From NCBI GenBank assembly GCA_950295325.1, contig OX485807.1, forward strand, positions 45,166,440 to 45,230,439: 64,000 nt of DNA, in the 5' to 3' direction. The notes beneath the pieces are model-generated. The model saw nothing but the letters and a program-made list of their open reading frames with translations, ran no database searches and had not been told where the DNA came from. The stretch comes from Polytrichum commune. Taxonomy: Eukaryota; Streptophyta; Polytrichopsida; Polytrichales; Polytrichaceae. Position 1 is the stretch's first letter. Each line of letters begins with the position of its first letter. Below are positions 14,042 through 57,883 of this stretch, piece by piece. Position numbers and translations under genes: made by a program.

Positions 14042-14054
14042 AACACTATATTCG
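14042..14054. repeat. Left terminal inverted repeat of C1
   Basis: AACACTATATTCG, identical to the left end of C2. Inside it comes GGAGACTTTTTG then GAGAC at 14080-14084, that is, a direct GAGAC repeat. The right ends instead carry an inverted GAGACTTT...AAAGTCTC. The left end of C2 has the same direct layout. Confidence 0.8.
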
Positions 14055-14443
14055 GTATTTGGAGACTTTTTGTTGATTATGAGACTATATAAGGATGCAC
14101 ATTTCAAAATTGGACCAATAATGACGACTAAAAATCCCATATGTATAATGGTATGCTACTATTATTATACATAAAGGCATGGAAGTGAAAAAAAATGTGA
14201 GGCATACATGAAAATAGTTGCGTATGAAATGACAACTCGTTATGAATGGAAGGGAAGATGCGAAGAATGAATGGAAGTTGAATGAATTAATTGGGATAGA
14301 AATACAATTATAATGGAAATACCATCAATGTCTTGAGTAACTTGGAATAGCATAGAAAGTAAGCACTTAAATATGTTCTACACCTAAGCCCATTTAGGGA
14401 GTCCGTCCCACTAGTACGCTTCTAGTCACACTAGTCCGACCCA
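14055..14443. other. Left subterminal non-coding region of C1
   Basis: AT-rich, with no gene. It probably holds the 3' untranslated end of B-II, which reads leftward toward the terminus. Confidence 0.5.
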
Positions 14444-15351
14444 CTATTTTTTTTTTGCGGCTAAGTCCTTTTTTTGGGCGGCCTCCATGGCTCTAAAAAT
14501 CTCAGGCCCACGACTGTATCCTTGTGTGTTGCCTGGAAAGGAATATGTGTCGTTCTTGCATGTTTCAGGACGCGCTCCCGAATTGTACGAGGTGGTATTA
14601 TAAGTAGAATACGAGGGCGTTTGCGAAAGGGAACGTCTTGCGCTTCTCCGGAGGGCCAGAGAACGATCGGACTCGGAAGATGCGGCCTTGAGGGCGTGCC
14701 TTGGCACTGACGAAGTCGAGGAGGGTTGGCCACCAAGCGAGCGGGGAGCCACCTGCCAAAAAACGCCATAGGAAGATAATAATAAGAACGGAGTGGGGAA
14801 ATGAGGAAGGGCGGTTTGGGATGGGCGCTCGTAAACCTCTTGGCACGCGCAGACAAAGAGGAAAGCAACGGTGAATATGGGTTTAGGGACAAAGAAGGGC
14901 ACCTTGGATTTGGTGACGTCGATCCCGGGGACGATGGGGGTGTCGAGGAGAGCATACGAATCCGGTTGAATTGCGGCACTGTTCAGTAATGTGGGGGAAA
15001 CATGGCAAGGAGGGCCAACGACCGGGGATGGGTTTGCAGGAGGAGGAACGGGGACGACGGGGGAGGGGTCGCACCGGGTTGCTTCCAGGTGGAGACGTCG
15101 GCTCGGCCCACGACGAGCGACGGCGTCGTCCCTCGAGGGCGACACATGCCCCAAACGAACGAGCGTCCGCTTCTCCTTGGAGAGGGGGGAGGGCGACGGG
15201 GCGAATGCCCGGGGGACAACCCTGGGGGGCGGGCTGTTGACAACACCGTCGTCGACGTCCCGGGAGTAGTCCACGGCCGAGGCTGCATCCACCGCCGAGA
15301 AGTGGTAGAGTGAGGGGATCACGGAATACGTCACGCCGCGGGAAGGGGAGC
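14444..15351 (-). CDS. B-II gene of C1: small Pro/Ser-rich protein, unknown function
   Basis: The exon with the 3' acceptor at about 14753-14755 (CAG, exon from 14752) encodes VAPRSLGG, SYNSGARPE, GYSRGPEIFRAMEAAQKK and a Lys-rich end. An upstream open stretch to about 15351 encodes SAVDYSRDVDDGVVNSPPP and SPSPLSK. All of these recur in the C2 copy (SYNSGGR, GYSRGAEIFRNVEA, DYSKEPLDAGVVDSPPP). Conservation between diverged copies argues that it is a real coding unit. The exact splicing of the first part is not resolved, and no convincing start ATG is seen. It begins about 175 bp after the B stop codon, so it could instead be alternative 3' exons of B. A degenerate type I palindrome lies at about 15154-15170. 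Confidence 0.55.
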
Positions 15352-15525
15352 CTGGGGACGAGGGGGGACGGGAAAGGCCGTGGAGGACGGGGGCGTCACA
15401 TATGGGGGCAAACTATGGGGAACAACAACAATAACAACAACAACACAGACAACAAAGACATCCAAAAACGGATGAAGCGTTAGATATGTGAACCAAATGA
15501 TAACACGCACATACATGAAGATATT

Positions 15526-16293
15526 TCAAATGAGTTTATTAAATTTCGCGAGCCTCATGATGCTCTTGTATACATTATCGCGGGGGCTTAGTCCCGCATT
15601 GCCGATGGGGTTGGACCTAACAAAAAAGGGGATGCTACCGGCGTGGAGGACAAGCCTTCTAAGGTACGGCGCTAGCGTATCGACCAAAAATGCGTCCTTC
15701 CTATCTCCGGTCCACGTGTCGGGAAAGATGACGTTGCCCGGGGGGTTCAAAACGCTCTTGGCGGGGCTGTCGTCGACCAGGAGGGTGTTCTCCGGAGTAG
15801 GCCACCACCCGTGGGGGGTCCCCTGAAGCCGGGGGACGCCGCGCCAAAGTCTGGACCTTAGGACCTTGAGGAACTGTTGCCCTCGGCCTCGGCCGCCGAA
15901 CTTGGGAACCGGTAGACCCTTTTCGTCGAGTAGTTCATCGCAGTCCTCTTGCCCGAGGACAAGGCAAGGGCTCGGGAGATCACGGAATAGGAAGTCGACG
16001 ATGGGTTCCGTGTTCTCCATGACCATTGAGCTCCACACAATGACGTGGGCGAACTCGACAACCTCGCGAAGGAAGTCCCGCAAGCCGGGACGGGCGCGGA
16101 CAGCCTTGCGGTTTATTAGGGTGTCGAGCTCGCCGTCATAGTCCCTTTCGTCGGGGTGACGGAAGGGACGCGTGGGGACCCTCGGGATGTGTTCGGTGTG
16201 ACACAACACCCCGTTGAGGTCAAACACGATGAACGGCTTGTTTCGGGTCTGAGGTCCACTCGTGGAGGGGTTGCGACCTATCTCCGGGGGGTC
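15526..16293 (-). CDS. B1 exon 5: FCP1-like HAD domain, C-terminus
   Basis: The acceptor is ATCACAG at 16294-16300. The exon encodes a 255-residue end: motif I FDLNGVL, motif II VIVWSSM, a Lys-bearing QQFLKVLRSRLW segment, and the DDS motif as NTLLVDDSPAKSVLNPPGN, ending KFNKLI and TAA. This is the FCP1/NLI-interacting-factor branch of HAD phosphatases, whose members dephosphorylate phosphoserine proteins such as the RNA polymerase II tail. The second motif I Asp is Asn (DLN) in both element copies; as I recall, a family of plant FCP1-like proteins also has DLNG. Whether it is catalytic is unknown. Confidence 0.85.
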   Translation of the reverse strand, partial: DPPEIGRNPSTSGPQTRNKPFIVFDLNGVLCHTEHIPRVPTRPFRHPDERDYDGELDTLINRKAVRARPGLRDFLREVVEFAHVIVWSSMVMENTEPIVDFLFRDLPSPCLVLGQEDCDELLDEKGLPVPKFGGRGRGQQFLKVLRSRLWRGVPRLQGTPHGWWPTPENTLLVDDSPAKSVLNPPGNVIFPDTWTGDRKDAFLVDTLAPYLRRLVLHAGSIPFFVRSNPIGNAGLSPRDNVYKSIMRLAKFNKLI

Positions 16294-16397
16294 CTGTGAT
16301 TAACAATTCGACTAGTTTAATGCTATGATCCAATAAAGAATTTAGCAAACATGAAGATGCAGTATGGAAAAAGACGAAGGGCGAGAACAAGGGTACA

Positions 16398-16551
16398 TTT
16401 GCGAACGATCGTTCGTGAAAGGCCAGCAGTGACCATGCGCACCATTCACGAACGTTCATTTGTGAATGAACCCTATAGTGCATTTACGAACGGGCGTTCG
16501 TGAAGGAGATGGTCGCGGGGTGGCATCCTTTTACGAGCGTCCGTTCGCGAA
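16398..16551. repeat. Type I palindromes in B1 intron 4
   Basis: Sites start at 16398 (central AT), 16483 (GG) and 16530 (TC), plus a degenerate site near 16444. They are all within the intron between the coil and HAD exons (16294-16883). A further site with central CG lies at 16833-16854 in the same intron. Confidence 0.85.
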
Positions 16552-16832
16552 CGAGGCAGAAATGCACAACAGATTTGAACCCGCATGAACATACACAAAA
16601 CAACCAATGCGAGACGACGCGATTCGATGCAAAAAAATGTTTCATTTATATGAATTCCGTGAAAATTTACAGTTTGTCTCAGATGATAATCTATCGTACA
16701 GGTTCCTAGGGCAACAAGATGCCGTGTCCTACAAAACTGGTCGACCTGAGGAAGCACGCAAAAATGGGCTATCGGAGGTTTCGGATGCCGATGTATACAA
16801 CGCGCCAAAACACAACGCATGTGGTTAGAGAT

Positions 16833-16854
16833 GTTACGAACGCGCGTTCGTAAA
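16833..16854. repeat. Type I palindrome near the 5' end of B1 intron 4
   Basis: GTTACGAACG, CG, CGTTCGTAAA. It lies about 30 bases inside the intron from the donor at 16879-16883 (minus-strand GTAAC). Confidence 0.8.
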
Positions 16855-16883
16855 TGCATGCGGTAGTCTCAAAGATGAGTTAC

Positions 16884-18326
16884 CTCGTCATCGGAGGGAG
16901 GGGCAGCGGCGCTGGATTGAGCGGCAGCTCCCTCCTCAGCGATTAACGAACGCGCGTTCGTCACATCCGCCGCCGCAGGTGCCTCAGTCTCCATTACGTC
17001 GTCAGCACGCGCCGCCTGAGACGTCTGGGTTTGCTGTATGTCGTCCTCCTCGCCACCCAGGTCGAGAGTCTCCATGTGCACGTCCCCAATGCATGCGGGG
17101 GGATGTCGGTCTTCCGCAGGGCTGTCCTCGACGTCCATCCTCTGGACGCCTGCGGTGTCACTCGGGCTCCCCTGCGTGTCCTCCACAATGACCAAGTCAG
17201 TGTGTCGCGCAGTATCATCGCCCCTTGTCCTATCTAGTAAACTGGGGACGACGGTGAAAGGTGCCGTGTCCGTCTGTGAAGGCAGTCCTACCCTTGGTGG
17301 GGGTGGGGTGAGGACTGTTGGACCTGAAGATTCACGAACGTGCGTTCGTAAATCCTCGTCCTCACGGATAGCCGCCGAGATTGCGTCGTGTATGTTGGCG
17401 GTGTCCGTGGGCATTGTAGGGGGTGGAGGAGTCCCCACCGGCGTTGGGTGGGGCGCTGGCTGGTAGGAATGCCTTCCCGGGAAAGGAGCGTGCATGGGGT
17501 ATCCCGCAGGGAATGGGAATGCTACCTGAGGGGCCACTGCAAAGTTCTGCAGCCTGGTCAGCATCGCCAGTATGGCGTCCGTCTTCTCGTTGGAGGACTT
17601 CAGCTCCTCCTCAATTTTTCTCATTTTCCGGGCATTCTCCTCTGCAGCCGCAGCCATGTCTTCCTTCATCTTCTGCTCGAGCTTTGCGTTAAGCTCGGCG
17701 ACGGAAAGGGCCTCCTCCTTGACCCTCTTGTTCTTGTCGAACTCCACCCCAAGCTCGACCATAATGTCAATGTCCCCCTCGTCCTCGTCGGAGACCTCGA
17801 TGATCGCCCCCTCGGGCAACTCCACGTACGGGGTCTTCTTCATCCTCCGTCGCGTGTTGCGGAACAGGTCCAACGTGGGACGGGAGCGTTGGTCGAGGAC
17901 ATCGAGGGTCTCCATTTTCGGGACCGCCAGCCTTTGCTTGGGGGACACTGACGTCGAACAACCTCCTGGCGTGCCGAAGGGCTCCGCGCCTGAGGTAAGC
18001 GCGGGGAGGACATCCTGGGTGGCACCCGCCGAGGATCCAGTACATCCAGCCGGGGTCCCTTGGTATTCTGAAGGCTCCCCCGATGGGGCCAACAACCGGA
18101 GAGGAGTGACATCCAAAGCCTGGAGGATGGCATCGACGTTGACGGAGGGGCCAGGCTCGTCGTCGTCTGTTTCCATGGGCGGCATGCCTTCCTCGGCCGG
18201 CATGTTGAAGTCCGTTCTGGGCACGGACATGTCAGCTAGGTCCATCGTCGACGCTTTTGTCCTGTGGAACTTGTAATCCTCCTCGTCGACGGCGTCAATA
18301 TATGTGTTCACGCACAGCCCCAGCAT
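16884..18326 (-). CDS. B1 exon 4: acidic, Pro-rich low-complexity and coiled-coil region
   Basis: The exon starts at the ATG right after acceptor CTCAG (MLGLCVNTYIDAVDEEDYKFHRTK) and ends DDE at donor GTAACT. It is 481 codons, phase 0 at both ends. The order is a conserved N-terminal segment (C2: MSGLNIYSYVEDADVQFYRTQ), an acidic Pro-rich stretch, RNTRRRMKKTPYVELPE followed by an acidic EVSDEDEGD-type segment (C2: RERRRMKGKKLYG, then SSEDEDDMEL), a Glu/Lys/Ala coiled coil (KEEALSVAELNAKLEQKM), then Pro-rich and acidic tails. Two type I palindromes (16943, 17331) are translated inside it. No enzyme motif is seen; it may be a linker or partner-binding region. Confidence 0.75.
16943..17352. repeat. 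Two type I palindromes inside a B1 coding exon
   Basis: Sites at 16943-16964 (central CG) and 17331-17352 (central TG) lie in the open frame of exon 4. They are translated as TNARS and RTHVRES. The equivalent C2 exon carries two type II palindromes instead. Confidence 0.85.
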
Positions 18327-18354
18327 CTGAGATAAGAAGGCAAAGATTCAGTCA

Positions 18355-18493
18355 TTTACGAACGCGCGTTCGTAAACATGAAGGCTTTGAGCGAGGAAAT
18401 AATAAAAAAACAATTCACAAAACAATCATAAGTATCGGCTGCCCATGGTAAATTGTTTGGAGCATGCAGTGTTTACGAACGAGCGTTCGTAAA
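18355..18493. repeat. Two type I palindromes in B1 intron 3
   Basis: Sites at 18355-18376 (central CG) and 18472-18493 (central AG). They lie in the 188-bp intron 18327-18514. The equivalent 175-bp intron in C2 also has exactly two palindromes, of type II. Confidence 0.88.
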
Positions 18494-18514
18494 AAGTGGT
18501 GTGAGATGGCTTAC

Positions 18515-19110
18515 CATGGCCGCGTACATAAATTTGCTGCCTCCAAATACGTTGTAGACAGTCTCGCCAATCATTGCCAAACCCTGCAATATGGAGACGT
18601 AGAACTCCATCCTCAGCTCCAGCGCCGGGAAGACAGTGTACAAAGTCTCCTGGAAGAGATCCTTTGGAGGTGGGTGAGGGATGCTGTATATCTTCTTGAA
18701 TGTGTTGATCGCCTTTATGGGTGCTCGCCCATTCCTAAGCGCATTGTATGTCAAGAAGATGAGGCTCACCGCTCCCACCTGCCTGTTGCCTCTGGCCTCG
18801 TTTACGGCAACAATTCCCTCCGTCTTCGCTGGCACGTATGTGCTGTGGAAGATGTTGTACTCGAACTTGATCTTGTTCTCATACAAATCGATGACGACGG
18901 ATTGCTTCTCCTGCTCCACAATCCACAGCCATACGTGCGGCTCCCTCATGGTCGGAGATTTGTGCTCCATGAATCTCGCCATGAAAGGGTTGTAAAAAGG
19001 CTCTGTGGTACTTTTGGGCCACCCCCTTTCGAGGGAGCCTAAAAGTATCACACAAGCCCTTCGGTGAAGGTGGCCTGCATTTGCAGGCGCCCAAGCCGAA
19101 CCCGGATGAT
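18515..19110 (-). CDS. B1 exon 3 remnant: DNA-methyltransferase-like C-terminal part
   Basis: The frame from about 19080 reads FYNPFMARFMEHK, REPHVWLWIVE, LELRMEFYVSILQGL and ETVYNVFGGSKFMYAAM, ending at donor GTAAGC (18509-18514). The NVFGGSK...AAM end resembles motif I (DPFxGSGTT) of N4/N6 amino-methyltransferases, which follows the catalytic motif in that class. The usual DPPY box is not visible; WLWIVE may occupy its place. It is therefore called methyltransferase-like only. It aligns with C2 over its whole length; the exon's 5' half is lost here. Confidence 0.6.
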
Positions 19111-21893
19111 AGGTGTATAACGTGAGTAGTTAGATTTTTAAGGGAGATTAAATATGCGTCGTAGTACCTCCGGAGGTTAGGCCTTAGTTTTTTACTAGTG
19201 TGGCTTTAAACTCCACTAACCAATTTCATATCTAGTTCTAACCTTAACCTACAACCTATTCTACGCGCAGACGCACCAGCCTTGAAACCAAGGCAATCCT
19301 AATTTGTGAATTGGGATGGTTCTGATACACCCAACCGGGTGTGACTCATACCACCCCAACTCAACGAACGGAATAACGACAATTTGATGGACCATTCAAT
19401 TCTTCCTATTTCTTTATTTATTTCTATTTAGTTTTCTAAGCGGGGGAACTTGGCCTAAGTCCCACCCTTCACACAAATTCCTTCTTAATTACTTACTTTT
19501 GTTTGCACGTCCTAACTTACTACATTAACATATTAGGCATCACCCCTTACCTCGGGTCTCTTGCCAACAAGGGTTTACGATTTATTTTGTATGTTTTGAT
19601 TGTTAAATGTGTTTACACTGGATAGACCACGAAATGCAACTCAATGGGACCAGGGTGACGGGCGACCTGTAGGTTCAACCTGTTGCGCAATCTTCATAAA
19701 TTGGGGCCATTACTCCCAATCTATGGGGCCAACAACATAATAGTGGATTCGCGGGTCATTAACCCCACCTTTCCACCAACAACATTCAGAGTGGTCGTGT
19801 CGGTGATTAATCCGACTTACCACACACGAAACTTGCTAATAAATGAAGCTACTACCACAAAACATACCAAGGGCCCCGAAAACAATGGAATTGGGTACTC
19901 CCTTGGCGGTCAAGTGGTCAAGCCACTTGACCTTACGAGATAGGTGAGTGGGTTTAGAGATGCGTACCTTAGCCGTGCTCCCTCCAATCCTAAATGGAAG
20001 GCTTAAGGTTAGTTAATTTACCTCAATTTTCCTCGGTTGATTTGGGCTTGATGTAGGCCGAGCCGCTACCTCCTTCCTTGCTCCACTTTCCGAGCGTCGA
20101 CCTTGCCTCCTTCTTTGTAACTAGTTTGGTAGTAAGCGTACCTTAGTTAACAATTAAAATATAAAGTGTTATTCTGCCCTGTAATTTAATCCTAAGCATA
20201 ATATTTATACTTAGTGCACCAAATTATCTTTCCAATGATCTAAAAATCACTCTAATCGGATAAGAAATGCAAAAGTTATGAGGGTTGGAAGTGTGAGGTC
20301 GATTCAACCGACCCTTCCAACCCACCTATCTACCTTCTAACTTCAAAAATTCATAGCACATTCCTTACTACTTGGATCTAGGCTTTCCTTATACCATTGG
20401 AAAGCTATGAACAAGCTCTAACTAGAAAAAATTATGACATCAGCAGGTTAAGCTAATAGAAATTCAGCGGACTCCTTGTAACACAGCAGTCAATCAAGAA
20501 GGCTTAAACTATGTATCTCGCCTTCAACAATTCATATCTAATTCAAATCTTAGTCAAATCAAACGTTCTATATGACCCTGGAGAGATATTAAAAAGATGT
20601 ATTTGATAAAAATATGTGATTAGAAAGGTAAGCCGAAGTGAACCCAGCAGGTCCTCTGTAATGCAGCAGTCAACCAAAAGTTCTCAAACTATGTGTCCCA
20701 TCTTGCACAATTCATATCTAATTCAAATCATGCTCAAATCAAATGTTCTAAGCCATTTTGGAAAGCTACACAAAAGTTCTACTTGGGAAAAATATAATTT
20801 CTTGGAATTAAAATTCCTATTGGGCTCGCAGGTCTGATCCAGCAGCCGCTACCCACAAGACCACCCAGTTTTTCTACTCCATCTTTGAAAATCCATAACT
20901 AATTGTCATCTCAACCAAATCACAAATGGGAAACGGCTATGGATAGCTATATGAAATCTCTCTAAGAGAAAAATGATAAGTATCTTGTTCTAGCTTTTGA
21001 ACTAAGCCTTCAGGGCATTGGCAGATGAGGTCTATAATGCCTCTACTCAAAACTCTACCATCCAACCTACCTCTACAAAAAAAGGAATAATTTTGTTGGT
21101 GTGTTAATAAACACACAACCTAATTAGGAGAGAGAGAGTAGAGGAGGTTCTCAAGCCTTTCTTTTAGACCATTGAGAATACATGCTAAAGGATTTTTTCC
21201 TAACTACATTAAAGCAGGGCTTCGCCCAAAAACTAGAGAAAGAGAGAGAGCTACAAGGTGGAAGGAGGGGTTTTTAAACCCTCTCACAAAAGGGTTGGAC
21301 CCCTCCTCCACCGGATCCATTTTTCAAACCCTTTCCCGAAATTTTGGCTCGGGGGTTTTCCCGGTTGAGGTTGCCACCCTCTCGCCGAGGTGGCTCCGAC
21401 AAAAAACCTTTAGAAATCTTTCTAATTTTTCCGCCATCGAGTTGGCAAGGGGGCAAGTGGGCAAGTATCCCCCTTGCTCTCTTTCTTTTTTATCTTCAAA
21501 ATTCTTCACGCCGATTTTATCTTCTTACGTAAAACACCTCCAATAGTCTTGTGTGCCTCACACTAACTAATAAACTAACACTTGCTTAGCTAGCATCTAC
21601 TAACATTTGCTTAATAACTAGCATCTACTAATATTTGCTTAGCTAGTTGTTTTTACTAGCTAGCATATTTTTTCTACTTTGCTATCTTCTAGCACTACTT
21701 AGTTTCATTTTGACCTTCCTTCTTCTAGGCTAAATGCTAAATGAACTAATTTTCCCTAAATTCCCTATCAATTCTAACTTTTAATGCTAACATTCTAACT
21801 AAAAGTGATCCCGCAGAGTGGTGGACCACTCAAAGGGTTCACAGCTTTCAATTCAGTTTATTATGTGTGAACTTGAACTACTGCATTAAATTT
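19111..21893. other. C1 middle region without genes, not shared with C2
   Basis: This holds no convincing coding frame. It includes a diverged repeat of about 180 bp (20281-20990), a GA-rich and GC-rich block at 21128-21560, and TAGCTAGCATCTACTAAC-like short repeats at 21580-21670. It begins where B-gene homology is cut off, so it is either an insertion that replaced the 5' half of B or a different leader. No target duplication could be paired. Confidence 0.5.
20281..20990. repeat. Diverged tandem repeat, unit about 180 bp
   Basis: Two neighbouring units share CAGCAGTCAA, then about 40 bases on CAATTCATATCTAATTCAAATC, followed by CAAATCAAA and GTTCTA (about 20485-20565 and 20664-20750). Weaker relatives flank them on both sides. 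Confidence 0.5.
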
Positions 21894-21939
21894 ATTATTA
21901 TATTTGTTAATCCGAGACTTTGGAAAGTCTCAAAATAAA
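21894..21939. repeat. Decayed internal terminal repeat (A-end type) inside C1
   Basis: This 46-bp stretch is the inverted counterpart of the C1 right end (28059-28104). Its inner 33 bases match with one change, including the hairpin GAGACTTTGGAAAGTCTC. The outer 13 bases match 9 of 13, and three of the four differences are C to T. It suggests that an A-only element with ends on both sides once existed here, or that a related element was inserted. Confidence 0.6.
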
Positions 21940-22275
21940 TGCAAATGATTTAATATGTGGTTCAAATTCTTATTCGGATGAGATGTATTTGTGCCAAATT
22001 GGTTAGTGTTGCCCATGCAAATCGCTTTATTGTGTCACATTGAATGTATTCTTGTATTTTACTTGTTCTTTATTTGAATACCATGTTCTGAAATAGTATC
22101 CAAAATCATGAAAATGTCCCCAATTACAGAATATGGTGATCGTTGAAAGTTTGGCTCGCATCAAATGTAAGCTACAAATAAATTAAGTTAGTGCAATATG
22201 GATTTATGAGTAGTGAATATAGTTTGTATGTAAACCCTGTTATATGAACTACTGGACATGCACATCCCTCACAAA

Positions 22276-22302
22276 CCCTAAACCCTAAACCCTAAACCCC
22301 TA
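22276..22302. repeat. Telomere-like CCCTAAA block in C1
   Basis: About four CCCTAAA units. The upstream flank aligns with E1 upstream of 4940. Confidence 0.8.
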
Positions 22303-22659
22303 GTTTTTTTTACCATCCGCACTATATGGGGGAATGTTGTGATCCAACCTAATAGTGTTGAGTGCATTTTAATTACACAATGCATAAGTGGGACTCCATA
22401 TAGGTATGGTTTCAATTCATATCATTACACTATCTTATGCACCATTCCAAATTAATTCAACATTTCCACACAATGTTGAATCAATTCACTATTTGCAAAC
22501 CTGGAGTTGCATTTGAATTAAGATATAAAGTATATCTAGGCATGGTTTGAATTCATCTCCTTAATCTACCTTAGTAGCTTGCATGAATTCACCAGACTTT
22601 TTATTGGTGTTCATGCACTTGGTGAGTATTTGCCGCAATAATGTACATAAATGTAATGT

Positions 22660-22854
22660 AGATACATGTAATGTATATATATGTAAAGTATAGATATGTA
22701 AAGTATAGATATGTAAAGTATAGATATATGTAAGAAACATATATATAGATATATATTCACACATATATATAGGTATATAGATATATATTCACATATATAT
22801 ATAGGTATATAGATATATATTCACATATATAGATATATATTTACATATATACAA

Positions 22855-22891
<37 letters not shown>

Positions 22892-22925
22892 AATATATGT
22901 AAATATAAGTAAATATATACATCGA
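22660..22925. repeat. TA-rich microsatellite
   Basis: Repeats of GTAAAGTATAGATAT and ATATATTCACATATATATAGGTATATAG lead into a pure TA run at about 22857-22888. It is at the same relative place as the TA runs of E1 near 6000. Confidence 0.8.
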
Positions 22926-23150
22926 TATGTATATAAGAATATACATTTTATTTTTTGGTTCGGGAAACCTTGGTAACACCTAAGGTGTGGAACGGATGAA
23001 CATATTATCAATGCGTGCATGCCATACATATTCAATACAGAAAGTTATTTATGTCCCGCATGAATAGAATGGCATATTGTTAGGTTAAAGTAGGCGGCGG
23101 GAATCCGCTTTTCAAAGAGAATCCAAGGGATTTTGAACCACGGTAGAGGA

Positions 23151-23160
23151 GTACTTAAAG
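23151..23160 (+). promoter_or_regulatory. Candidate core promoter of the C1 A gene
   Basis: GTACTTAAAG, then CTCTCCCCCCC, conserved with E1 at 6368. It lies about 160 bases before the palindrome array. The role is inferred. Confidence 0.35.
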
Positions 23161-23318
23161 CTCTCCCCCCCATTGCAGAGCTCTTTTTTGCGGGAGACAC
23201 CAAGTGTGCGCTCCAGACACCCGATGGAGGGCGCTCGAGCCAGTTTCCTGTGCGTGAACCGTACACTCATAGGTGGCAGACAACCTTATCCCGCAAATAC
23301 CGCCGCAAATACCGGGGG

Positions 23319-24412: not shown

Positions 24413-24576
24413 TATGCCCAACTCAAACAGAAGCGTGTTTGCATGCAGACGATCGTTCTGTTATTCCCACTGTGACTTGTGCTCTATTGTGACTTAGGTT
24501 TACTAAAATCTTGTTGTATTTGTGATTGACTTATATATGTTGTGATTCCATGTTCGCGTCATTAGGTGGGTTTGCG

Positions 24577-45238: not shown

Positions 45239-45246
45239 ATACTCAC

Positions 45247-45545
45247 CTCCCATTTGGGGTTCTTGTCTTTAGCATTCTCCCTTTCCTTGGGAGGCCTTCC
45301 ATAAAACTCCCACACCTCCCTCGAGGCCATGATGTTTCTGATCCACGATGCCTGATAGGCCCTCTTTTTGTTCCCCATGTTGAAGAACCTGGAGATGTCG
45401 CTGAGGACCGTCTCGTTGTCCGACCAAACCACCAAAGCCTTCCAAACTTTTAGCTTCTCCTTCTGGTTGTTCGGGTCGTCCCACTGTGAGGCCAAACCCC
45501 CCACCCTTAAGCGTCCGTAGTCCGAGTAGTGGGTTTGGGCTCACA
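45247..45545 (-). CDS. B2 exon 2: continuation of the ParB-like region
   Basis: The frame reads HYSDYGRLRVGGLASQWDDP, KLKVWKALVVWSDNETVLSD, ISRFFNMGNKKRAYQASWI, then KNPKWE at donor GTGAGT. No named domain is recognised, but it directly follows the DGQH segment of exon 1 once the insertion is removed. The upstream boundary is set by the 12-bp repeat at 45534-45545. A TGA lies in that repeat in the same frame. Confidence 0.6.
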
Positions 45546-47557: not shown

Positions 47558-47569
47558 TTTGGGCTCACA

Positions 47570-48662
47570 CCCACTCGGTCATCAGCTGGATTTTTTTCGA
47601 GGCCTCCACACTGTGCTGCCCGTCAATCAGCCAGAAGTCTCCTTTAGAGATTGCCGGCCACATCTCAGGCGTCGGCATTCTTTTCAGCCCTTGTGGCATG
47701 ACAACAATTGTCTGCCTGTCGTCCTTGAACTGCCCGCCCAAGATTTGAGCGACCATCCAGTCGACGTAGGCGTCCTCCTTGGCTCGGACGCACTTCTCTG
47801 GTGGCGCAAGGTGGCACTGCGCAATGTTGACCTCGAATTTGAAGTCCCTGCCCATGAAGAAGCAGTGCAGGCATTTTGTCTCGAAGTTGTTGTTTATTTT
47901 TTGTATTTCGCCTGCATCCACCTCTTGGCCAGGCTTCGGCATCCGGAGCTCCGGGGAAACAGGCTCGTCAGTCATCCCCGATGACTCTCTTCCCCTCTTG
48001 GAAGGGGTCGTCTGACGGCTTCCTGATGGCGTTGGCGTCTCGCTGTCAGCCGGCGTTGTTGTAGTGCTCGTCCGTCTCGAGTCTGCAGGGACCGCCCGCG
48101 GTTTCCTCACAGTTTGTGGTCTTGAGGACCCTGCGCCTTCTTCCGTCGTTGCCTTCCGCCTCACAGGCTGCTGCGTCTTGGGTTTGCTTTGCAGCGCCTT
48201 GTTGAGAACCGTGATAGCCTGTTTTAACTTTGTGAACCTGCTCGCAACCTTCGTGTTCGTTACACTACCATCTATGAATATGGCCTCCGGTTTTATGGTT
48301 TCAGGGTCGACGCAAGTCTCCTTGGCGTACAGGGGGTCGAAGGGCTCGGAGAACTGGTGCATGAACATGTGGACGTTCTGCACGGCGGAGTTCTCCAGTA
48401 TCACGTCTACGTAGTCCCCGAGAGACTGGACGGACGCAACCTCCCATCCCGTCAGCGTTGCCCAGGTGTGCTGCTCGTGGGTCCCCACCTTCACCACGAA
48501 TAGCAGCTTGAACATGGATGCCTTCACCACCTGAACGGACCATGCCAAAACGACGCCATCTTTTGGGACGTAAGAATCGTCCTGTGGAGTTTCATACTCC
48601 TGCCAAAGGTGGTCTGGCGCGAGCATGAACCACCTTTCACCTGGTCTCTTTTTAGGGGCCAT
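47570..48662 (-). CDS. B2 exon 1: ParB-like domain
   Basis: The ATG at 48662 directly follows a splice acceptor (GATTGCAG), so translation starts with the exon, and the palindromes upstream lie in a leader intron. The protein starts MAPKKRPGERWFML; a Ser/Thr/Pro-rich basic linker (about residues 165-235) is followed by MPKPGQEVDAGEIQKI, CLHCFFMGRDFKFEVNIAQC, KEDAYVDWMVAQILGGQF, TIVVMPQGL and GDFWLIDGQHSVEASKK. The LIDGQH box and preceding strands resemble the N-terminal ParB/sulfiredoxin-like fold (IxDGHHR), found in plasmid partition proteins and in nucleases. ParB-like is a motif-level call. Confidence 0.65.
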
Positions 48663-48689
48663 CTGCAATCCAAGAAATCGAAACTGTGA

Positions 48690-49239
48690 GTTTCGGTCGA
48701 TCGACCCAAAGTATTGCAATGTGCATTTAACATTTGGAGGATTGACCCAAACATTTACTTAATTTTCAAAGTCGTTTTAAAAGATCTTTTAGATTTTAAA
48801 GTGTGGTTTAGGTGGTCACCCTGTAATGTTTGGGTCGAGCGACCCAAACATGATGAGGCTGCAAATTTAGGTATCTCAACACATTCATTTCAGACTGCAA
48901 TGTTTGGGTCGAACGACCCAAACAATTACTTAATTTTGGAAGTTCTTTTATATTTTACAATGTGGTTTAGTTCTTCTCCCTGTAATGTTTGGGTCGAGCG
49001 ACCCAAATATGTTAGGCTGCAAATTTAGGTAGCTCAACCCATTCATTTCAGACTGCAATGTTTGGGTCGAACGACCCAAACAATTACTTAATTTTCAAAT
49101 TTCTCTTTTATTTTACAATGTGCTTTAGTTCTTCTCCCTGTAATGTTTGGGTCGAGCGACCCAAACATAATGAGGCTCCAATGTTTGGGTCGCTCGACCC
49201 AAACAAGAGGCTGCAATGTTTGGGTCGAACGACCCAAAC
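48690..49239. repeat. Type II palindrome cluster in B2 leader (8 sites)
   Basis: Sites start at 48690 (one arm changed), 48828, 48902, 48987, 49060, 49145, 49183 and 49218. There is a half site near 48739 and a degenerate one at 49291. Central pairs are AT, AG, AA, AG, AA, AG, CT and AA. Part of the cluster is a tandem unit of about 158 bp. It mirrors the array upstream of the A gene. Confidence 0.9.
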
Positions 49240-49309
49240 ATTTAGTTCATTTTAGGCTGCAATTCAAATATTTATTATATTTTAATATGAGTTTGGGTCG
49301 TCTCCCCAA

Positions 49310-50360
49310 ACTACTGTGTTTCCAGATGCATGTTTAATGCTTGGGCAACATATACAATGCTTATGCATTGTATATGTAACAAGAACCTAAAGGGAATGAT
49401 GCAAATTGTGTGCACTGATGCAAATTGCTTACCTTGTCTTTCAAACTCTTGAAAGCTGCTCTCACAATCTGCTTCTTACAACCAGACTCAGAAACTCTGT
49501 TGTGGCACTAAAGAACAACTCTCACAAAGATCTCAGAAACACAATGAATCTCTCAAGCACCCTAAAACTTTCTCACAAACCCCCTGATTCTTGCAAACTC
49601 AGGCCTAATTTGAAAGACCTCTACCTTTCTATCACACTCGACCGTGCTCACTTCTACTCAACCTAAAATCACTCCATGCATGAATTTTACAAAACAAGTA
49701 AGGAGTTCAACACAATAAACCGCTCCGAACTCACTCAAAGCTAACACTCTGGACCAAGAAGAGAGAATAAGAAGAGGAAGACAATAACACGAGGAATAGA
49801 ATGAGAGAAGAGGAGGAGAAGCATCAGAGAGGAGGAGAGGAATGAAGGAGAAAGAAGAATGAAGGGAAGCGGCGCGACCAAGACAAAAGCAAAAGGTGCG
49901 AGAGGAAGCGCTTGGCGCGGCGCTATGGAAAGCGGCGGCGGCGTTTCCAAGAACGGCGCTTGGCGCGGAGGAAGAGAGGAAGAAAAAGAGAGAAAGAAAA
50001 AAGAGGAGGGGAGAGAAGGAGAGAGCGGAAGGGGTCACCCTAAACCCTCGAATCCAGGCCATTAGATTGCGCCGGGCCCATCAACGACTCAGAAGCCTCG
50101 CGGGCCAACACCTTGCCAGGTGTCGACACCTCCTTGGTTTAGGTGGTTGCCCGCGAGGCTTGTGGTGTTGACACCTGCCACCCTAGGGAGATTGCCTTCC
50201 TGGTTGTCCTTGCCCCTAGGTGCGGGACATAGGAGGCCGGCGCCTCTCTTGGCCGCCCGGCCCCGGCCTTCTAACCCGCTATTCATTAGCGGCAATTCAA
50301 TACCAGTCAAAAACCTACGTGGACTAAGGTATTCCACAAAATTAACACCATCACCAACTC
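49310..50360. other. Central GC-rich block of C2, probable B leader or promoter region
   Basis: No convincing coding frame. It has CTCTCA/CTCACAA-type simple words (49420-49640), a purine-rich stretch (49745-50030) and GC-rich DNA to about 50280. It resembles the block at 3370-4390 in E1 by position and composition. A promoter for the leftward B gene is expected here but no box can be named. Confidence 0.4.
50093..50161. repeat. GC-rich stem-loop
   Basis: A 13-bp perfect inverted repeat AAGCCTCGCGGGC / GCCCGCGAGGCTT spans a 43-base loop that holds the palindrome AGGTGTCGACACCT. Confidence 0.8.
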
Positions 50361-50815
50361 ATATTTTAATGGTATTCAATTGAATGATCACCCGTTGGAA
50401 TTGATAACATCGTTGAATGTAGCCATTATCGTTTTGGTGTATGAATAATGTAATTTATGGAATCATATGAGAGTGTTACAAAGTCTAAGAGGAGTAAGTC
50501 ATAATTATATTGCAATCCACAAAGGCAATTACACGGTGCAATAATATAAATATGGTAACCATTCACATGGTTAACAGTTTAGGATTATGTATTGTAATTT
50601 ATATGATGGTTGTTGGTAGAGGACAATGCTCTAGTCTATAATGGATACCCTAACAAGTAGCATTAGAGTGAACATTAATATATGTACTTAGAAGTTCACA
50701 TTTGAAGTACATGGGAGAAACAAATGATTACAAATGTATCTACTGCAACCCCATGGAGTTCACATATCATATGAAGTCATTTAAACATTCAGTTTGATGT
50801 TTGATGATGCCTGAA

Positions 50816-50844
50816 CCCTAAACCCTAAACCTTAAACCTTAAAC
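50816..50844. repeat. Telomere-like block in C2
   Basis: CCCTAAACCCTAAA, then degraded CCTTAAA units, at the place equivalent to those of E1 and C1. Confidence 0.75.
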
Positions 50845-52187
50845 AACACAAACCATAACTGGATGGCACATAGGTCAAATGACATGGGCCTTGGTGCTTG
50901 TAGTTTCCAATACAAATGTATATTGTCATCACAACATCCTAATTCACAAACGTGAAAGATGGATGTGTGGTTTTTCACGAATGAACGCACTAAAGGAAAT
51001 AAACGATATTGTGCTCACAAGTAGGTGATACAATATTAACCTATAACCTTGTCACCTGGTAAGAAGAGCATAAGAACTAGATTATAATGGATAGGATGTT
51101 GTTCATGTTAACATGTTATTTGGAATAGTGAAATATTATATATTAATTTAAGGTAGATTTCATGTTGTGAATGATATGAGGACATACCTTTTGAACTTTG
51201 CATGTTTTGCTCACACACATTGGTAGAGTTCAAGGGACTTCACGATAGGTTCAAACATCCTTGGAAGATTGAACGTGCCAAATGTCATTTGTGGTTTAGG
51301 GTTCCATTAATGACTTCCACATAGGTACTAGGTTATTGTCACACTTGGAGTCTTGAGGATGAAGCAATATTGGGTGCACACATTACAACACAACATATGT
51401 TCTTTTAATTAGCAGAAATTGAAAGTTGGCCAAATTATTCAAGTTTGTCATGGCATTAATTATTTGTTTTCAAAATATAAGTCCTCATGTGAGAGTCTAA
51501 ATAATAGCATTAACTATTATATTTAGTGACTTTTAGTATATGAAGTTTTATAATACATGCACATCTTTTGTCAATATATTGTTTGAAATATACCATAATG
51601 TTTGACTACAAGTAGAGTAAAACCCCTTAATAGATATAATCTTACATATTGTCATAGGGTTATTGGTATTCAGTGTATGCGTTCATATGTAGTGTATCAA
51701 AACCTTTATATCCTTTTTAGTTATATGATAGTTAGTGTTTGATACACTTAAAACGAACGCATACACTTCCCATTACTAACCCTATGAGAGTAAGTAACAT
51801 TAAATGTAAACTCAAACACTAAATATCCACTATGGTGATATATGGAAGTTACATATAGGGATTTAGTATTAGTAAGGATGTGAGAAAAATATACAACAAT
51901 GATAAAAGGAGAAAGGAGATGGCAATAGGGAAGGTGGTGGTGTATTCATGTATAAAACTAATTATGAAAGAGTTGAAGAATAGTGTTGACCAAGTTAGGG
52001 TGGTAACAACTTTAAATATATGTTGAATTATTCATTTGGTGGTTGGGGCAACGAAGAGCCAAGCTAAATATACATTCTCTATTATTGACAAGAAGAGGGA
52101 AATTGAGTCAGAAGGTTTGAATTAACATCCAAAGGAGACCAGGTGGGAAAGGCATCCAAAGAGGATGCCCAAAGCGGAGGCGGGTAG
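50845..52187. other. AT-rich non-coding stretch of C2
   Basis: No gene. It contains an inverted-repeat hairpin at 51653-51786 and, near its end, the hairpin GGCATCC-AAAGA-GGATGCC at about 52151. Confidence 0.5.
51653..51786. repeat. MITE-like imperfect hairpin, 134 bp
   Basis: CATAGGGTTA and AGTGTATGCGTTC on the left are repeated inverted on the right over about 50 bases. The outer limits are unclear because similarity may extend about 20 bases each way. Confidence 0.5.
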
Positions 52188-52194
52188 TATAAAG
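52188..52194 (+). promoter_or_regulatory. Candidate TATA box of the C2 A gene
   Basis: TATAAAG followed by an AGCCCAACCCCCC run, at the position of GTACTTAAAG plus C-run in E1 and C1, about 220 bases before the palindrome array. Confidence 0.4.
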
Positions 52195-52408
52195 AGCCCA
52201 ACCCCCCCAAATGCTGGTTCTTTCTTTCATGTCCCAATCCTGAGATTGCTGCAAGCTCTCTAAGTTGGAGCTGTAATACACGGTTTGTATACGCTTCCAT
52301 TCATGAGCAGCTAATTACAACAAGCATCTATGAGTTCAGTTGTCCCAAATAGGTTATAAATAGATTAATAGAGCATCACCTGAATAAATAGGCGGATTTT
52401 GCGGAATT

Positions 52409-54069
52409 GTTTGGGTCGGTCGACCCAAACCCAGCCTTACAGTGTGGGTGCTCTCTGTATTGAGCCAGAACCCATCCTGCCTCAAGGTTTGGGTCGATCG
52501 ACCCAAACCCAGCCCTACAGTGTGGGTGCTCACTGTTGTGAGCCTGAACCCATCCTGCCTCATGGTTTGGGTCGATCGACCCAAACCCAGCCCTACAGTG
52601 TGGGTGCTCACTGTTGTGAGCCTGAACCCATCCTGCCTCATGGTTTGGGTCGGTCGACCCAAACCCAGCCTTACAGTGTGGGTGCTCTCTGTATTGAGCC
52701 AGAACCCATCCTGCCTCAAGGTTTGGGTCGATCGACCCAAACCCAGCCCTACAGTGTGGGTGCTCACTGTTGTGAGCCTGAACCCATCCTGCCTCATGGT
52801 TTGGGTCGATCGACCCAAACCCAGCCCTACAGTGTGGGTGCTCACTGTTGTGAGCCTGAACCCATCCTGCCTCATGGTTTGGGTCGGTCGACCCAAACCC
52901 AGCCTTACAGTGTGGGTGCTCTCTGTTGTGAGCCTGAACCCATCCTGCCTCATGGTTTGGGTCGGTCGACCCAAACCCAGCCTTACAGTGTGGGTGCTCT
53001 CTGTTGTGAGCCTGAACCCATCCTGCCTCATGGTTTGGGTCGATCGACCCAAACCCAGCCCTACAGTGTGGGTGCTCTCTGTTGTGAGCCTGAACCCATC
53101 CTGCCTCATGGTTTGGGTCGATCGACCCAAACCCAGCCCTACAGTGTGGGTGCTCTCTGTTGTGAGCCTGAACCCATCCTGCCTCATGGTTTGGGTCGAT
53201 CGACCCAAACCCAGCCCTACAGTGTGGGTGCTCTCTGTTGTGAGCCTGAACCCATCCTGCCTCATGGTTTGGGTCGATCGACCCAAACCCAGCCCTACAG
53301 TGTGGGTGCTCACTGTTCTGAACTTGAACCCATCCTGCCTCATGGTTTGGGTCGGTCGACCCAAACCCAGCCTTACAGTGTGGGTGCTCTCTGTTGTGAG
53401 CCTGAACCCATCCTGCCTCATGGTTTGGTTCGATCGACCCAAACCCAGCCCTACAGTGTGGGTGCTCACTGTTGTGAGCCTGAACCCATCCTGCCTCATG
53501 GTTTGGGTCGATCGACCCAAACCCAGCCCTACAGTGTGGGTGCTCACTGTTGTGAGCCTGAACCCATCCTGCCTCATGGTTTGGGTCGGTCGACCCAAAC
53601 CCAGCCTTACAGTGTGGGTGCTCTTTGTTGTGAGCCTGAACCCATCCTGCCTCAAGGTTTGGGTCGATCGACCCAAACCCAGCCCTACAGTGTGGGTGCT
53701 CATTGTTGTGAGCCTGAACCCATCCTGCCTCATGGTTTGGGTCGATCGACCCAAACCTAGCCCTACACTGTGGGTGCTCACTGTTGTGAGCCTGAACCCA
53801 TCCTGCAAAAAGGTTTGGGTCGCTCGACCCAAACCCAGCCCTCTAAGTGTGGGTGCTCCCTGTCGTGACCCAAAACCCATTCTGCCAAAAGGTTTGGGTC
53901 GCTCGACCCAAACCCAGCCCCTAAGTGTGGATGCTGTCTGTAGTGAGCCTAAACCCATCCTGCCAGAAGGTTTGGGTCGCTCGACCCAAATCCAGCGCCT
54001 AAGTGTGGGTGCTCTCTGTATTGAGCCTGAACCCATCCTCCCAAAAGGTTTGGGTCGCTCGACCCAAAC
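52409..54069. repeat. Type II palindrome tandem array upstream of C2 A gene (22 sites, 78-bp unit)
   Basis: Twenty-two palindromes at 78-bp spacing from 52409 to 54069. Central pairs are AT or GT in most units and CT in the last four. One site (53423) has a changed arm. The unit length is 26 codons, so several frames on both strands stay open through the array; these long repetitive frames are not taken as genes. The array ends about 200 bases before the acceptor-like GTGTAG (54272-54277) and the A gene ATG, so it is probably in a leader intron. Confidence 0.93.
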
Positions 54070-54282
54070 CCAGCCTCTAAGTGTGGTTGGGATCTGGGTG
54101 CCGGTGTGGCCACTGGCCTTCCGAAACCTTTACAAGCCCAATGGCATAGCAGTCATATGAACTTGTATGAGCACTGAGTATTTGCAATTTTGTTTATATA
54201 TGATGGTTTTTTTGTTCTTCGATTTGAACCTACAATTTTTGTGATTTTAAGACAATGTTCAATGTTCATGTGTGTAGGCAGA

Positions 54283-57200
54283 ATGGATGGGTTTAGTGAA
54301 ATAGGGGATTGGTCATCTGATGACATGGCCACTTGGCCATCTGCATCTGATGATGACCTAGACATTGTCGGGGAGGCTACTATGGCTGACAGTGCGGATG
54401 AAGATCATTTGGATTTACCTTCGTCTTCCGTACCGCAGTGTCCCATTGTTGAATGTACGGGACTTTCAAGGGCTTCGTGGGTGAATTTGGAGGTGATACT
54501 TCTTAACGATAGTGGAGTTGTTGTGGCGGAGGGGATTTGCCGTAACACCCATCCGCAAGATTGCATTGATGAAAACCCGCTTGGCACTGAGGACGTTGGG
54601 GTTGTCATATTGGAGTCGGTCGTTCATTCCGAGGTGGATCCCACTCATAGGTTCTCCCTCCGCAGGTGGCCATTGAGGAATGTCACAATTGATGGAGTTA
54701 GCTTGCGTGAACATGAGCAACGACACATGCAAATCGAAAAGGAGGTGCAATCAAACATGCGGCCGCGCAAGGGTCAAAGAAAGTACGATACATTGGCACG
54801 TCCTGCTCCGTCTGCAACTGATTGTAAACGTTAAAGGTTGCTCGGGGAGGAGTCCATTAGAGAAGTTGCCACAAAGGATTGTTGTGTGCATCGTTGTTGC
54901 CAATTGTTTCCAAGGGATAAATTGAAGGTCATCCGCGAAGAAATGTGGCTTGGAGATTTCCGTCTAAGATCCACAAGAAAACTTGATGTCCATAGGGCGA
55001 TACATGTGAATGGGACGGGTCGCAAGGTCATCACCATTGAAAGCATAGACGTGTGTTGTAAGGCATGGTACACCATTCACGGTGTGTCGAAATCGGACTT
55101 TTATAGACAAGCTGCTTATGCCAAGGAAGGCCGCCGGTCCCGTCACCATGGTAACGTGGGTTTAAAGAAGCCTAGGGAAGCAACAAGGCAAGCAACGGCC
55201 ACTCTAGCAACCATCATTGTCCCTCTTGCCGATGCAATGCCGCACAAAACACGCACACTCACAACCGGTGAAAAGGTTGTGGAGAAAGTTCTTCCCACAG
55301 GCACAAAATGGAAAGACATATTGTTGGACGTTAATGCAGTTGGCGAGAAGATTGGGTTGGAGCCAATTTCATTGTCAAAATTGAGTGCAATCAAGAAACA
55401 AAACTTTAGCGAATACATTACAAAAAGACGAGGGGACAAATTTGCCAGGTGCTCTAATTGCGAGAAGTTGAAGCGCCTCCGGGATGCACACACGATGGGC
55501 ACCGAGTCATATGCAGCGCATCAATTGAACTATTTCAAGCACGTAAACATGCAAGAGGCACACCGTAATGATTACTACACAAATAGAGCTTTGTCCATCT
55601 CCAGGCCCTTGGAGGTTCTTACGGTCATCCATGACAAAATGGACCATGCCAAAACAGCCTCCCCATGTTTTGCAAATCGAATCAAGGCCACGGATGGGTT
55701 TTTCAAGTTGCCTGTATCGGTTACAGGTGAACTTCGAAACAATGTCATGATATACCCTAAATGTTGTTGTATTTTATTCCGTGATGTACTGGAGAACATG
55801 GATTCCTTCATAATGGTTTATTCATACATAGATGCTAATCACGTTGGGTTGGCATTGCAGGAATGATTGCACATGGACACGGTGATGTCAAATTTGCTCA
55901 TTATGCTCTTGATTTGTATCCAGCGGATTCAAACCACACGATAGGATCATTTGCAAGGCTTTTACGTGATTTAGAGAAACCACCAGCCTATTCTTCAGGA
56001 TTGTTATTTGAGAACACGGGTTCAACACCTTTATATGAAGCGGTGTTGGATGGAAAAGATGTATGCTTGCATTCGTTGCCCGAGCCACCCAATGAACCCG
56101 TGATTGCCAAGAAGTTGCCTCCAACTTTGCGTGTCCAATTGGACAATTGTGCCAAGGACAATAAAAGCAGATATGTATTTGCATATTGGTCGTTGTTGGT
56201 TGCGAAAGGCATTTTCAAGGAGGTTTTTGTGTCCTTCCTATTGGTAGGCCACACGCACGATGATATTGATGCATCTTTTGGGCGGTGGAGCATGAAGTTG
56301 CGGGAGGAGGATTTCCCTACAATTCCATTATTGATGAAGTCGTACATGGATTTGGAGAACGTTCCCGTCATCCCCCATATGATTGAGGAGGTGCCAGACT
56401 TCAAGGCATTTATAGAACCTTATATTCGAAGTGGAGCTCACCGATTGATCGGGCATACGAAGGCACAACAATTCCGCTTCTATATGCGTGACGATGGTGT
56501 CCCGGCCATGCAATACAAGTTGTTGTGCACGTCACAAGACTGGAGCCCGCCGGAGGGTCTTCTTGTGTGGCGCGTGGATGCGGATGGAAAGACCATGTTA
56601 CCGGATGGGGAGCCTAGGCCTTGTAAGCCAATAGCCATGAAGAATTTGGAGGATATTTTGAAAGGTATATCAGGCTTCATACAATATTGGGAGAGTTTGA
56701 AAATAGCGGATGTTGGCGGATCATGTTGGCATCGTTATGGGAGTTGGATACATTATTGGACACGTGTTCGTGCCGCCTTGGCAGACCTCCACCAAGATAG
56801 CCCTCATACTTTGAGGCATGGATTTTGGCCACAAACACGAGTCGATGTACAAGCTTCAGAGCCTAGTCTTTTGGGAAATGGAGAGGTTCGAGAGGAGTTT
56901 GATGTGGACGACCATTACGTGGGGCCTGCTAGTAGTCGTCCCCCACCATCTTTCCGCATTGCAGTGGATTGTCATGAAGGTTATATGCTCATTTTGCGTC
57001 CTAGAGACGAGACATATGCGAAGCCAGTGTGGGTGGCAAGAGCTTTGTCCAATCCTAATTTTGTAACTTCCAGCCCTCATTTTCGACAAATACAAGTGGA
57101 GTACTATCGACCGACAGCAAGGAATGAAGATGTGATTCGGCATTATACAGGCTGGGATACAAACCCTAACTTTCGGTGGAAGGTGGATTCTGAGCACGGT

Positions 57201-57347
57201 CCATCTTGGGTAGATACAGATTCCATATTCATAGCATGGAAACCACGGAAACACCATAGTGGATCAGTGTCCATCCCTCAAAAGTACATAACTTTTGCAA
57301 AAGACAACCTTGCTCGGATTGCAGAAGAAGCAACCCACGTTGAATGA
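54283..57347 (+). pseudogene. A gene of C2: DUF7869-type transposase-like protein with one early stop
   Basis: Exons are 54283-55726 and 55861-57347, with a 134-bp GT-AG intron splitting a Gly codon. The ATG (MDGFSEIGDWSSDD) follows an acceptor-like TGTGTAG. Order: acidic N-terminus, SWVNLEVILLNDSGVVVAEG domain, CCVHRCCQLFPRDKLKVI, HGVSKSDFYRQAAYAKEG, KFARCSNCEK, HDKMDHAKT, MIAHGHGDVKFAHYALDL, LDNCAKDN and GHTHDDIDASFGRW, ending THVE and TGA as in E0. A TAA at 54832-54834 interrupts the frame just before LLGEESIREV; C1 and E1 have a sense codon there. The rest is open. It is very close to E0 and clearly distinct from the C1/E1 subfamily. Confidence 0.88.
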
Positions 57348-57866
57348 GAAGTTGGTAGGATTGTGTTAGCATGATTATAGTTTAATACGTAATTATAGCA
57401 ATATAAATTACACATATGTGTGCTCTTCAAAATTGGGGCAGAGTTTGGGTAGAACTTACGAATACTATATTGTTTGGAGTTGGATGAATATCCATTTACT
57501 ATATTTCAAGCTGCAATTGAAGTTCATCTTATTATTATGCTTGGGACTATATTCTCGAATGAAGAAACATGCATTTATTACATGCACTTTGTATGTTGCA
57601 ATGTCTATATTCTATTGAACATGCTAATAATAGAAATCATTTTATATATATTTTTGGGTGAAACTTGTTTGAAGTGCTCTACCCAATGTGTTTTTGTTGA
57701 TGAAGTTGGTGTCGAGTGCTCTACCATATGTGCTTATGTCCGCACATCATAGATTTGGGATATTAGAACATATAATATAATTGAGATTGTTGACAATATA
57801 GTTTCGGGCCTCTTCAAGTTCTTTGATCCATATATTAATTTGAGACTAGAGAAAGTCTCAATTTAA

Positions 57867-57883
57867 CGAATATAGTGTTATAG
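57867..57883 (+). repeat. Right terminal repeat of C2 and its target duplication
   Basis: CGAATATAGTGTT at 57867-57879, followed by ATAG at 57880-57883, which matches the left flank. GAGACT...AAGTCTC lies just inside, as in E0. Confidence 0.82.

Follow-up and report, generated by a model that had tools for sequence, protein, structure and literature searches.

A large DNA transposon family of the moss Polytrichum commune with private dyads and a putative self-recognition module

Does a DUF7869 gene that lies beside two oppositely oriented genes in the moss Polytrichum commune travel with them as a single transposon and, if so, what might the neighbouring genes do for the element? The question is raised by a stretch of 64,000 nucleotides (GenBank assembly GCA_950295325.1, contig OX485807.1, positions 45,166,440 to 45,230,439 of the forward strand), referred to here as the window, in which two complete elements, C1 and C2, each carry a DUF7869 gene (A) on one side and two further genes (B and B-II) on the other. 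The B and A modules are supported as parts of one mobile unit, and the elements contain arrays of a 22-bp dyad that is of one type in C1 and of another in C2. The proposition that the element is a DDE-type transposon equipped with a module for self-recognition, probably directed against silencing, is one that we regard as evenly balanced.

Ends and genes of the mobile unit

Both complete elements had been predicted to run from a 13-bp end, AACACTATATTCG, to its reverse complement. The 13-mer is exact at all four positions (14042 and 39161 on the forward strand, 28092 and 57867 on the reverse), and exact reverse-strand sites at 2863 and 11631 complete the list for the window. With up to two mismatches allowed the count rises to 8, against an expectation of 1.54, and none of 100 shuffles reached it. 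The inverted repeat itself is about 30 bp long, with 25 of 30 positions paired in C1 and 29 of 30 in C2, where the perfect part exceeds 13 bp. The 4-bp target-site duplications (TSDs) claimed for the two elements, CTTT and ATAG, are likewise exact and match between the correct partners alone; when left and right flanks were paired wrongly, none of the six combinations matched. The original prediction had fixed the element edge by inspection, and a trial of eight offsets (-3 to +4) upheld that choice: a 4-bp repeat appears at this edge alone, in both elements, while an offset of -1 leaves a 2-bp repeat and the remaining offsets leave none. A terminal inverted repeat (TIR) and a short TSD at one common edge, as in a cut-and-paste DNA transposon, are therefore found in both complete copies.

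The left (B-side) and right (A-side) ends are polar, each with its own architecture kept across subfamilies. The two instances of the direct arrangement GAGAC-N14-GAGAC in the window mark the left ends of C1 and C2; the inverted arrangement GAGAC-N8-GTCTC has five, at four right ends and at 21914 in a degenerate remnant inside C1. The element had been described as seen twice; both complete copies are real, but four copies are visible, and two of them, recognised by right ends at 2875 (E0) and 11643 (E1), had been overlooked. Both of these copies are partial, with left ends outside the window. Over the parts that correspond, E0 (1-2875) shows 90% identity with C2 and E1 (8115-11643) shows 86% with C1. 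In both C1 and C2 the genes lie as predicted, with B-II and B leftward and A rightward.

The DUF7869 type proposed for A is borne out by the PF25273 profile (E 5.5e-43 in C1), which was found in exon 2 of A in four of four copies. Pfam gave nothing else above cut-off for A, a CACTA-type transposase domain included, and comparison with PDB sequences gave no match up to E 5; DUF7869 was named nowhere in an open-access literature search. The coding intron, as placed by inferred splice sites, occupies the identical position in all four copies. Purifying selection has acted on A: within subfamilies, dN/dS (the ratio of nonsynonymous to synonymous substitution rates) is 0.11-0.13 by NG86 and 0.13-0.18 by YN00. 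Candidates for a DDE/D triad are acidic residues of DKMDH, QLDNCAKDNK and HTHDDID, which are kept between subfamilies (E1 has T for A in the second of these stretches); A is probably a DDE-type transposase.

Gene B had been described as a ParB/methyltransferase/HAD gene, of which the HAD part stands. PF03031 (NIF/HAD phosphatase) matches B with 56.4 bits in C2 (E 3.8e-15) and 58.5 bits in C1 (E 8.2e-16) against a cut-off of 21.8, and both copies contain a catalytic-type DLNGVL; a dullard-like NCBIfam model also matches, at E 2.9e-8 and under its cut-off. The other two parts were not confirmed. ParB and methyltransferase profiles were not found in B with Pfam (E up to 10), PHROGs or NCBIfam (E up to 5), the structure models considered below are too poor to support either, and the ParB/DGQHR-like IDGQHSVEA and methyltransferase-like NVFGGSK are short look-alike motifs, recognised by eye alone. 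Among PDB sequences, two B pieces had chance-level matches only (best E 0.12) and the NIF/HAD exon had none at E 0.01. The intron edges of B were inferred from GT-AG. B-II has no Pfam family match.

A bacterial, phage or viral origin was considered and set aside, as no relatives of A or of the B pieces were found in the sequence sets searched, where the reach of the phage, viral-contig and prokaryote searches was limited to close relatives. Exon 2 of the C2 A gene and the first exon of B each lacked a relative in phages or viral contigs, the NVFGGSK exon lacked one in phages, and an alignment of A exon 2 from three copies, used with two peptide patterns, brought up no relative in prokaryote genomes. 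Rfam gave no match.

Private dyads and the divergence of B

Two 22-bp dyads are private to the elements. M1, TTTACGAACG-NN-CGTTCGTAAA, has 35 sites in the window at up to three mismatches, 17 in C1 and 18 in E1 and none elsewhere; M2, GTTTGGGTCG-NN-CGACCCAAAC, has 39, all within C2. A fourth mismatch adds two M1 sites in C1 and three M2 sites in C2. Neither dyad was found in the flanks, no dyad up to four mismatches appeared in five single-base shuffles per motif, and exact M1 and M2 have no occurrence in viral contigs. Nearly all exact half-sites lie within dyads (49 of 49 for M1, 73 of 74 for M2). The visible part of E0, which comprises the A gene and the right end, contains no dyads. For each motif the sites are grouped in five clusters, so that tandem copying explains part of the counts; at 52409-54086 in C2, a 78-bp tandem unit is repeated 21.5 times with one M2 dyad per unit. 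Dyads are present in six of six inferred B introns and in none of the four A coding introns, and the A coding sequence has none.

The two cores are of equal length and share a CG-NN-CG centre, the half-sites being otherwise different, and on the strength of that common length and centre M1 and M2 look like two versions of one putative dimer site. The letters of the 2-bp spacer vary and mismatches in the inner core are never compensatory; together with the near-confinement of exact half-sites to dyads, this would fit the DNA site of a dimer better than a hairpin. Directly outside the core, complementary pairs (A-T, T-A, G-C, C-G) are common and give weak evidence of a longer dyad or of pairing (on a plain tally in which array copies are non-independent). 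On the simplest reading, recognition of the ends would fall to A and that of the dyads to B or B-II, and the subfamily-specific dyads suggest self-recognition within each subfamily.

The dyads also bear on the unity of the element. The same dyad type occurs in the B and A modules of C1, and likewise of C2, and the type differs between the two; in E1, M1 lies on either side of a central region that is partly collinear with C1. Since a common private dyad is evidence independent of the ends, it argues against separate insertion of the halves. The predicted single mobile unit with both modules is thus supported twice, by the polar ends and by the dyad that the modules have in common.

B diverges along with the dyads, whereas A and the ends stay conserved. 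Between C1 and C2, A has 66-70% amino acid identity (dN 0.23-0.25) and the ends agree at 25-26 of 30 positions, while three pieces of B have 31-46% identity (dN 0.55, 0.71 and 0.84) and B-II has 44% (dN 0.65); the linker-exon dN of B is 0.83 once the C2 part past a poly-G run is dropped. At this depth dS is saturated or not computable, hence dN/dS is unusable. Third-position differences between C1 and C2 are about equal in A and B.

The observed/expected ratio of CpG in three flanks is 0.37-0.70, which fits a methylating host. Within the elements it ranges from 0.32 (C2 middle) to 1.52 (C1 M1 array), and they are therefore not uniformly CpG-rich.

Copies, damage and neighbouring features

Coordinates of the elements and of their parts are collected in Table 1. 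Neither of the two complete copies is intact. The 5' part of B is missing from C1, inside which there is also a family remnant of 247 bp. In C2 a 2.1-kb insert interrupts B, and A and B have one in-frame stop each. A non-standard genetic code was considered for the stops in C2 and E1 and rejected: once spliced, A of C1 reads through 998 codons uninterrupted, and the stops differ in kind. E0 seems to have inserted in E1, because the first M1 dyad, at 2887, lies 12 bp beyond the E0 end; E0 is apparently nested within E1, the left part of which would lie beyond E0 and outside the window.

Table 1. Elements, ends, genes, dyad groups and insertions in the window
Feature	Position	Strand	Details
Element C1, subfamily 1, 14,063 bp	14042..28104		TSD CTTT at 14038-14041 and 28105-28108
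C1 left (B-side) end	14042..14085	+	AACACTATATTCG with direct GAGAC-N14-GAGAC
B-II of C1	14447..15412	-	ORF (open reading frame) extent
B of C1, 3' part	15529..19051	-	NVFGGSK exon, linker exon, NIF/HAD exon 15529-16292 (PF03031 E 8.2e-16)
M1 dyads, B introns and linker exon of C1	16398..18493		8 sites, up to 3 mismatches
MITE-like (miniature inverted-repeat transposable element) 247-bp remnant inside C1	21894..22140	-	one A-type and one B-type end, both degenerate
M1 dyad array 5' of A in C1	23319..24059		9 sites
A of C1	24577..27708	+	DUF7869, 998 aa spliced, inferred intron 26048-26182, open; PF25273 E 5.5e-43
C1 right (A-side) end	28067..28104	-	AACACTATATTCG with inverted GAGAC-N8-GTCTC
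Element C2, subfamily 2, 18,719 bp	39161..57879		TSD ATAG at 39157-39160 and 57880-57883
C2 left (B-side) end	39161..39204	+	direct GAGAC-N14-GAGAC
B-II of C2	39750..40597	-	extent of two ORF pieces
B of C2	40681..48662	-	N-terminal exon ending IDGQHSVEA, NVFGGSK exon, linker exon, NIF/HAD exon within 40681-41523; broken by insert and in-frame stop
M2 dyads, B introns and linker exon of C2	41950..45238		9 sites
Insert splitting the C2 B gene, 2.1 kb	45485..47569		TG...CA ends, 5-bp CCCAC repeats; LTR-like (long terminal repeat)
M2 dyads, inferred 5' leader intron of C2 B	48690..49239		8 sites
M2 dyad array 5' of A in C2	52409..54069		22 sites
A of C2	54283..57347	+	DUF7869, in-frame stop in exon 1; exon 2 PF25273 E 8.2e-41
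C2 right (A-side) end	57842..57879	-	inverted GAGAC-N8-GTCTC
E1, visible part, subfamily 1	2876..11643		right end 11614-11643
M1 dyads on E1 B side	2887..3293		6 sites
M1 dyad array 5' of A in E1	6538..7789		12 sites
A of E1	8118..11240	+	DUF7869, in-frame stop in exon 2, start codon uncertain; exon 2 PF25273 E 3.1e-38
E0, right part, subfamily 2	1..2875		right end 2846-2875
A of E0, 3' part	1..2344	+	open as far as visible; exon 2 PF25273 E 1e-40

The 247-bp stretch reads as a MITE-like remnant of the transposon's own family. Its ends stand in inverted orientation, the A-type end matching the C1 right end at 25 of 30 positions and the B-type end matching the C1 left end at 24 of 30, and its flanks, ATTT and CGTT, mismatch, with no TSD left. 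E1 is without the remnant, yet it is collinear with C1 on either side (E1 4730-4774 with C1 21848-21887, and E1 4792-4876 with C1 22150-22231); a global alignment of the E1/C1 stretch around the remnant left the junction unresolved. The insert in the C2 B gene is probably an LTR or a short LTR element. In C1 the place expected for the 5' part of B is taken by 2.8 kb (19052-21847) that have no clear E1 or C2 match in the stretches compared, and the edge of this segment, ...GGGTTCACA, resembles the end of the C2 insert.

Telomere-like interstitial CCCTAAA tracts, of a kind that would point to a plant or green alga, lie at 4937, 22273, 36689 and about 50825; E1, C1 and C2 have one each, placed between A and the B side, and the other is outside the elements. 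At 29362-32910 on the forward strand there is a long open reading frame resembling that of a long interspersed nuclear element, with an RVT_1 match (E 2.6e-29) and, near its C-terminal part, a weak PCIF1_WW match (E 5.4e-6) that falls under its cut-off.

What the accessory module may do

The observations can be gathered into one proposal. A single family of large cut-and-paste DNA transposons, with subfamilies C1/E1 and C2/E0, would use A to pair both ends and to insert with a 4-bp stagger. B, perhaps with B-II, would be an accessory factor that binds the element's own 22-bp dyads, and dyad-bound B would keep the element active against host silencing. That B may counter silencing is an analogy with VANC, the role of which in VANDAL elements would here be taken by a different protein.

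VANDALs are Mutator-like, and a TSD of the Mutator type is about 9 bp; unlike them, the moss element has a 4-bp TSD and a DUF7869 protein as A, neither being of the Mutator type. For Arabidopsis VANDALs, sequence-specific anti-silencing by the transposon's own protein is documented in the accounts drawn on here (PMC5735166, PMC10398659). VANDAL21 is described as having motifs in the introns of VANC21 and VANB21 and upstream of VANA21, with co-evolution of the motif and the VANC protein (PMC5735166). As these accounts present them, VANDALs resemble the moss element in combining a transposase with accessory genes, in carrying private motif arrays in accessory-gene introns and 5' of the transposase gene, and in having a motif that differs between related families and a VANC protein with highly variable regions (PMC5735166, PMC10398659). 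They differ in the motif itself, a 9-base word arrayed in one orientation in VANDALs as described there and a 22-bp dyad here, and the sole Pfam domain of B above cut-off is NIF/HAD. A tentative and more specific version of the proposal, to which we give somewhat less than even weight, is that a non-Mutator transposon independently evolved VANC-like self-recognition: a fast-evolving HAD protein, possibly with ParB-like and methyltransferase-like parts, would bind private dyads in introns and promoter regions, and the subfamilies would avoid cross-recognition by a switch of half-site that keeps CG-NN-CG.

Several points weigh against this proposal. Four copies are visible in all, of which the window edge truncates two, and in no complete copy are both genes intact. 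No DNA-binding or DNA-modifying family was found above cut-off for B in Pfam, PHROGs or NCBIfam, an HTH_70 match at E 0.16 being at chance level, and the structures modelled for A and for one region of B, with mean predicted local distance difference test scores of 31 and 34, are too poor for use. Four dyad sites, two in C1 and two in C2, lie within B coding sequence, in the linker exon, and hence not all are noncoding. Finally, the quicker change of B could reflect weaker constraint.

CACTA/EnSpm elements carry accessory proteins, and CACTA letters stand near the end of the moss element too. EnSpm is characterised by CAC...GTG termini and a 3-bp TSD, and the CMCT group overall by mostly CA..TG termini and TSDs of 2-5 bp (both as summarised in PMC12730594). 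TSD length alone therefore does not rule out the CMCT group. Membership of CACTA/EnSpm itself was rejected on termini, TSD and domain, the element having AA before CACTA, a 4-bp TSD in two of two copies and DUF7869 as the domain of A. A functional parallel is offered by fungal DNA transposons (KDZ, Plavaka, EnSpm and others) that carry a captured TET/JBP dioxygenase, thought to counter methylation, but the enzyme, transposases and TSDs are different, and private motif arrays are absent from that account as far as it goes (PMC12730594). No TET/JBP match turned up in the moss element.

The element might also be a new family of a catalogued superfamily with captured accessory genes, Sola2 being the best candidate. 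This is possible, if on the unlikely side, and is compatible with the self-recognition proposal. Sola2-type elements of Dictyostelium fasciculatum are reported to have 12-13-bp TIRs, AT-rich 4-bp TSDs and captured Fanzor genes (PMC3627910), and the perfect 13-bp TIR and 4-bp TSD found here agree with them. The duplications CTTT and ATAG, however, depart from the AWWT target given for Sola2, a consensus from Dictyostelium families that may not define the whole of Sola2 (PMC3627910). Open-access literature searches for large elements with a 4-bp TSD, and for ParB with a transposon in charophytes, moss or fern, gave nothing relevant among the matches listed, and one for En/Spm TnpA motifs returned nothing.

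A rather less probable explanation leaves silencing aside: the dyads would be sites for transposase A or for a plain transcriptional regulator, comparable to repeats that other transposons carry internally or near their ends. In its favour, the arrays lie 5' of both genes, as would be expected of a regulator's sites, and A is the most clearly conserved protein. The dyads are nevertheless distant from the ends, and the half-sites differ in all save CG-NN-CG while A and the ends are conserved, B being what changes most alongside them. Action of the dyads in RNA, as hairpins in introns or leaders that affect splicing or small-RNA production, appears improbable. Many dyads do fall within inferred introns, and the complementary pairs beside the core would suit it, but none of the changes in the core restores pairing and the same word recurs amid unrelated flanks, so that what is kept is the sequence and not the pairing. 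That the B and A halves are separate adjacent elements, with outer ends alike through a common family, is very improbable: the degenerate end pair at 21894 and 22140, which might look as if an end once stood between the halves of C1, is read as a single small inverted remnant, absent from E1, C2 has no internal end scoring at least 20 of 30, the halves of each element have a private dyad in common, and in both elements the TSD at one end of the full unit matches that at the other.

Were the self-recognition proposal true, DUF7869, a domain of unknown function, would gain a mobile context and a probable function. The two dyads and two B proteins would form a clean pair for a direct test of a switch in DNA specificity, and a second element of VANDAL-like layout with another transposase would suggest a convergent strategy.

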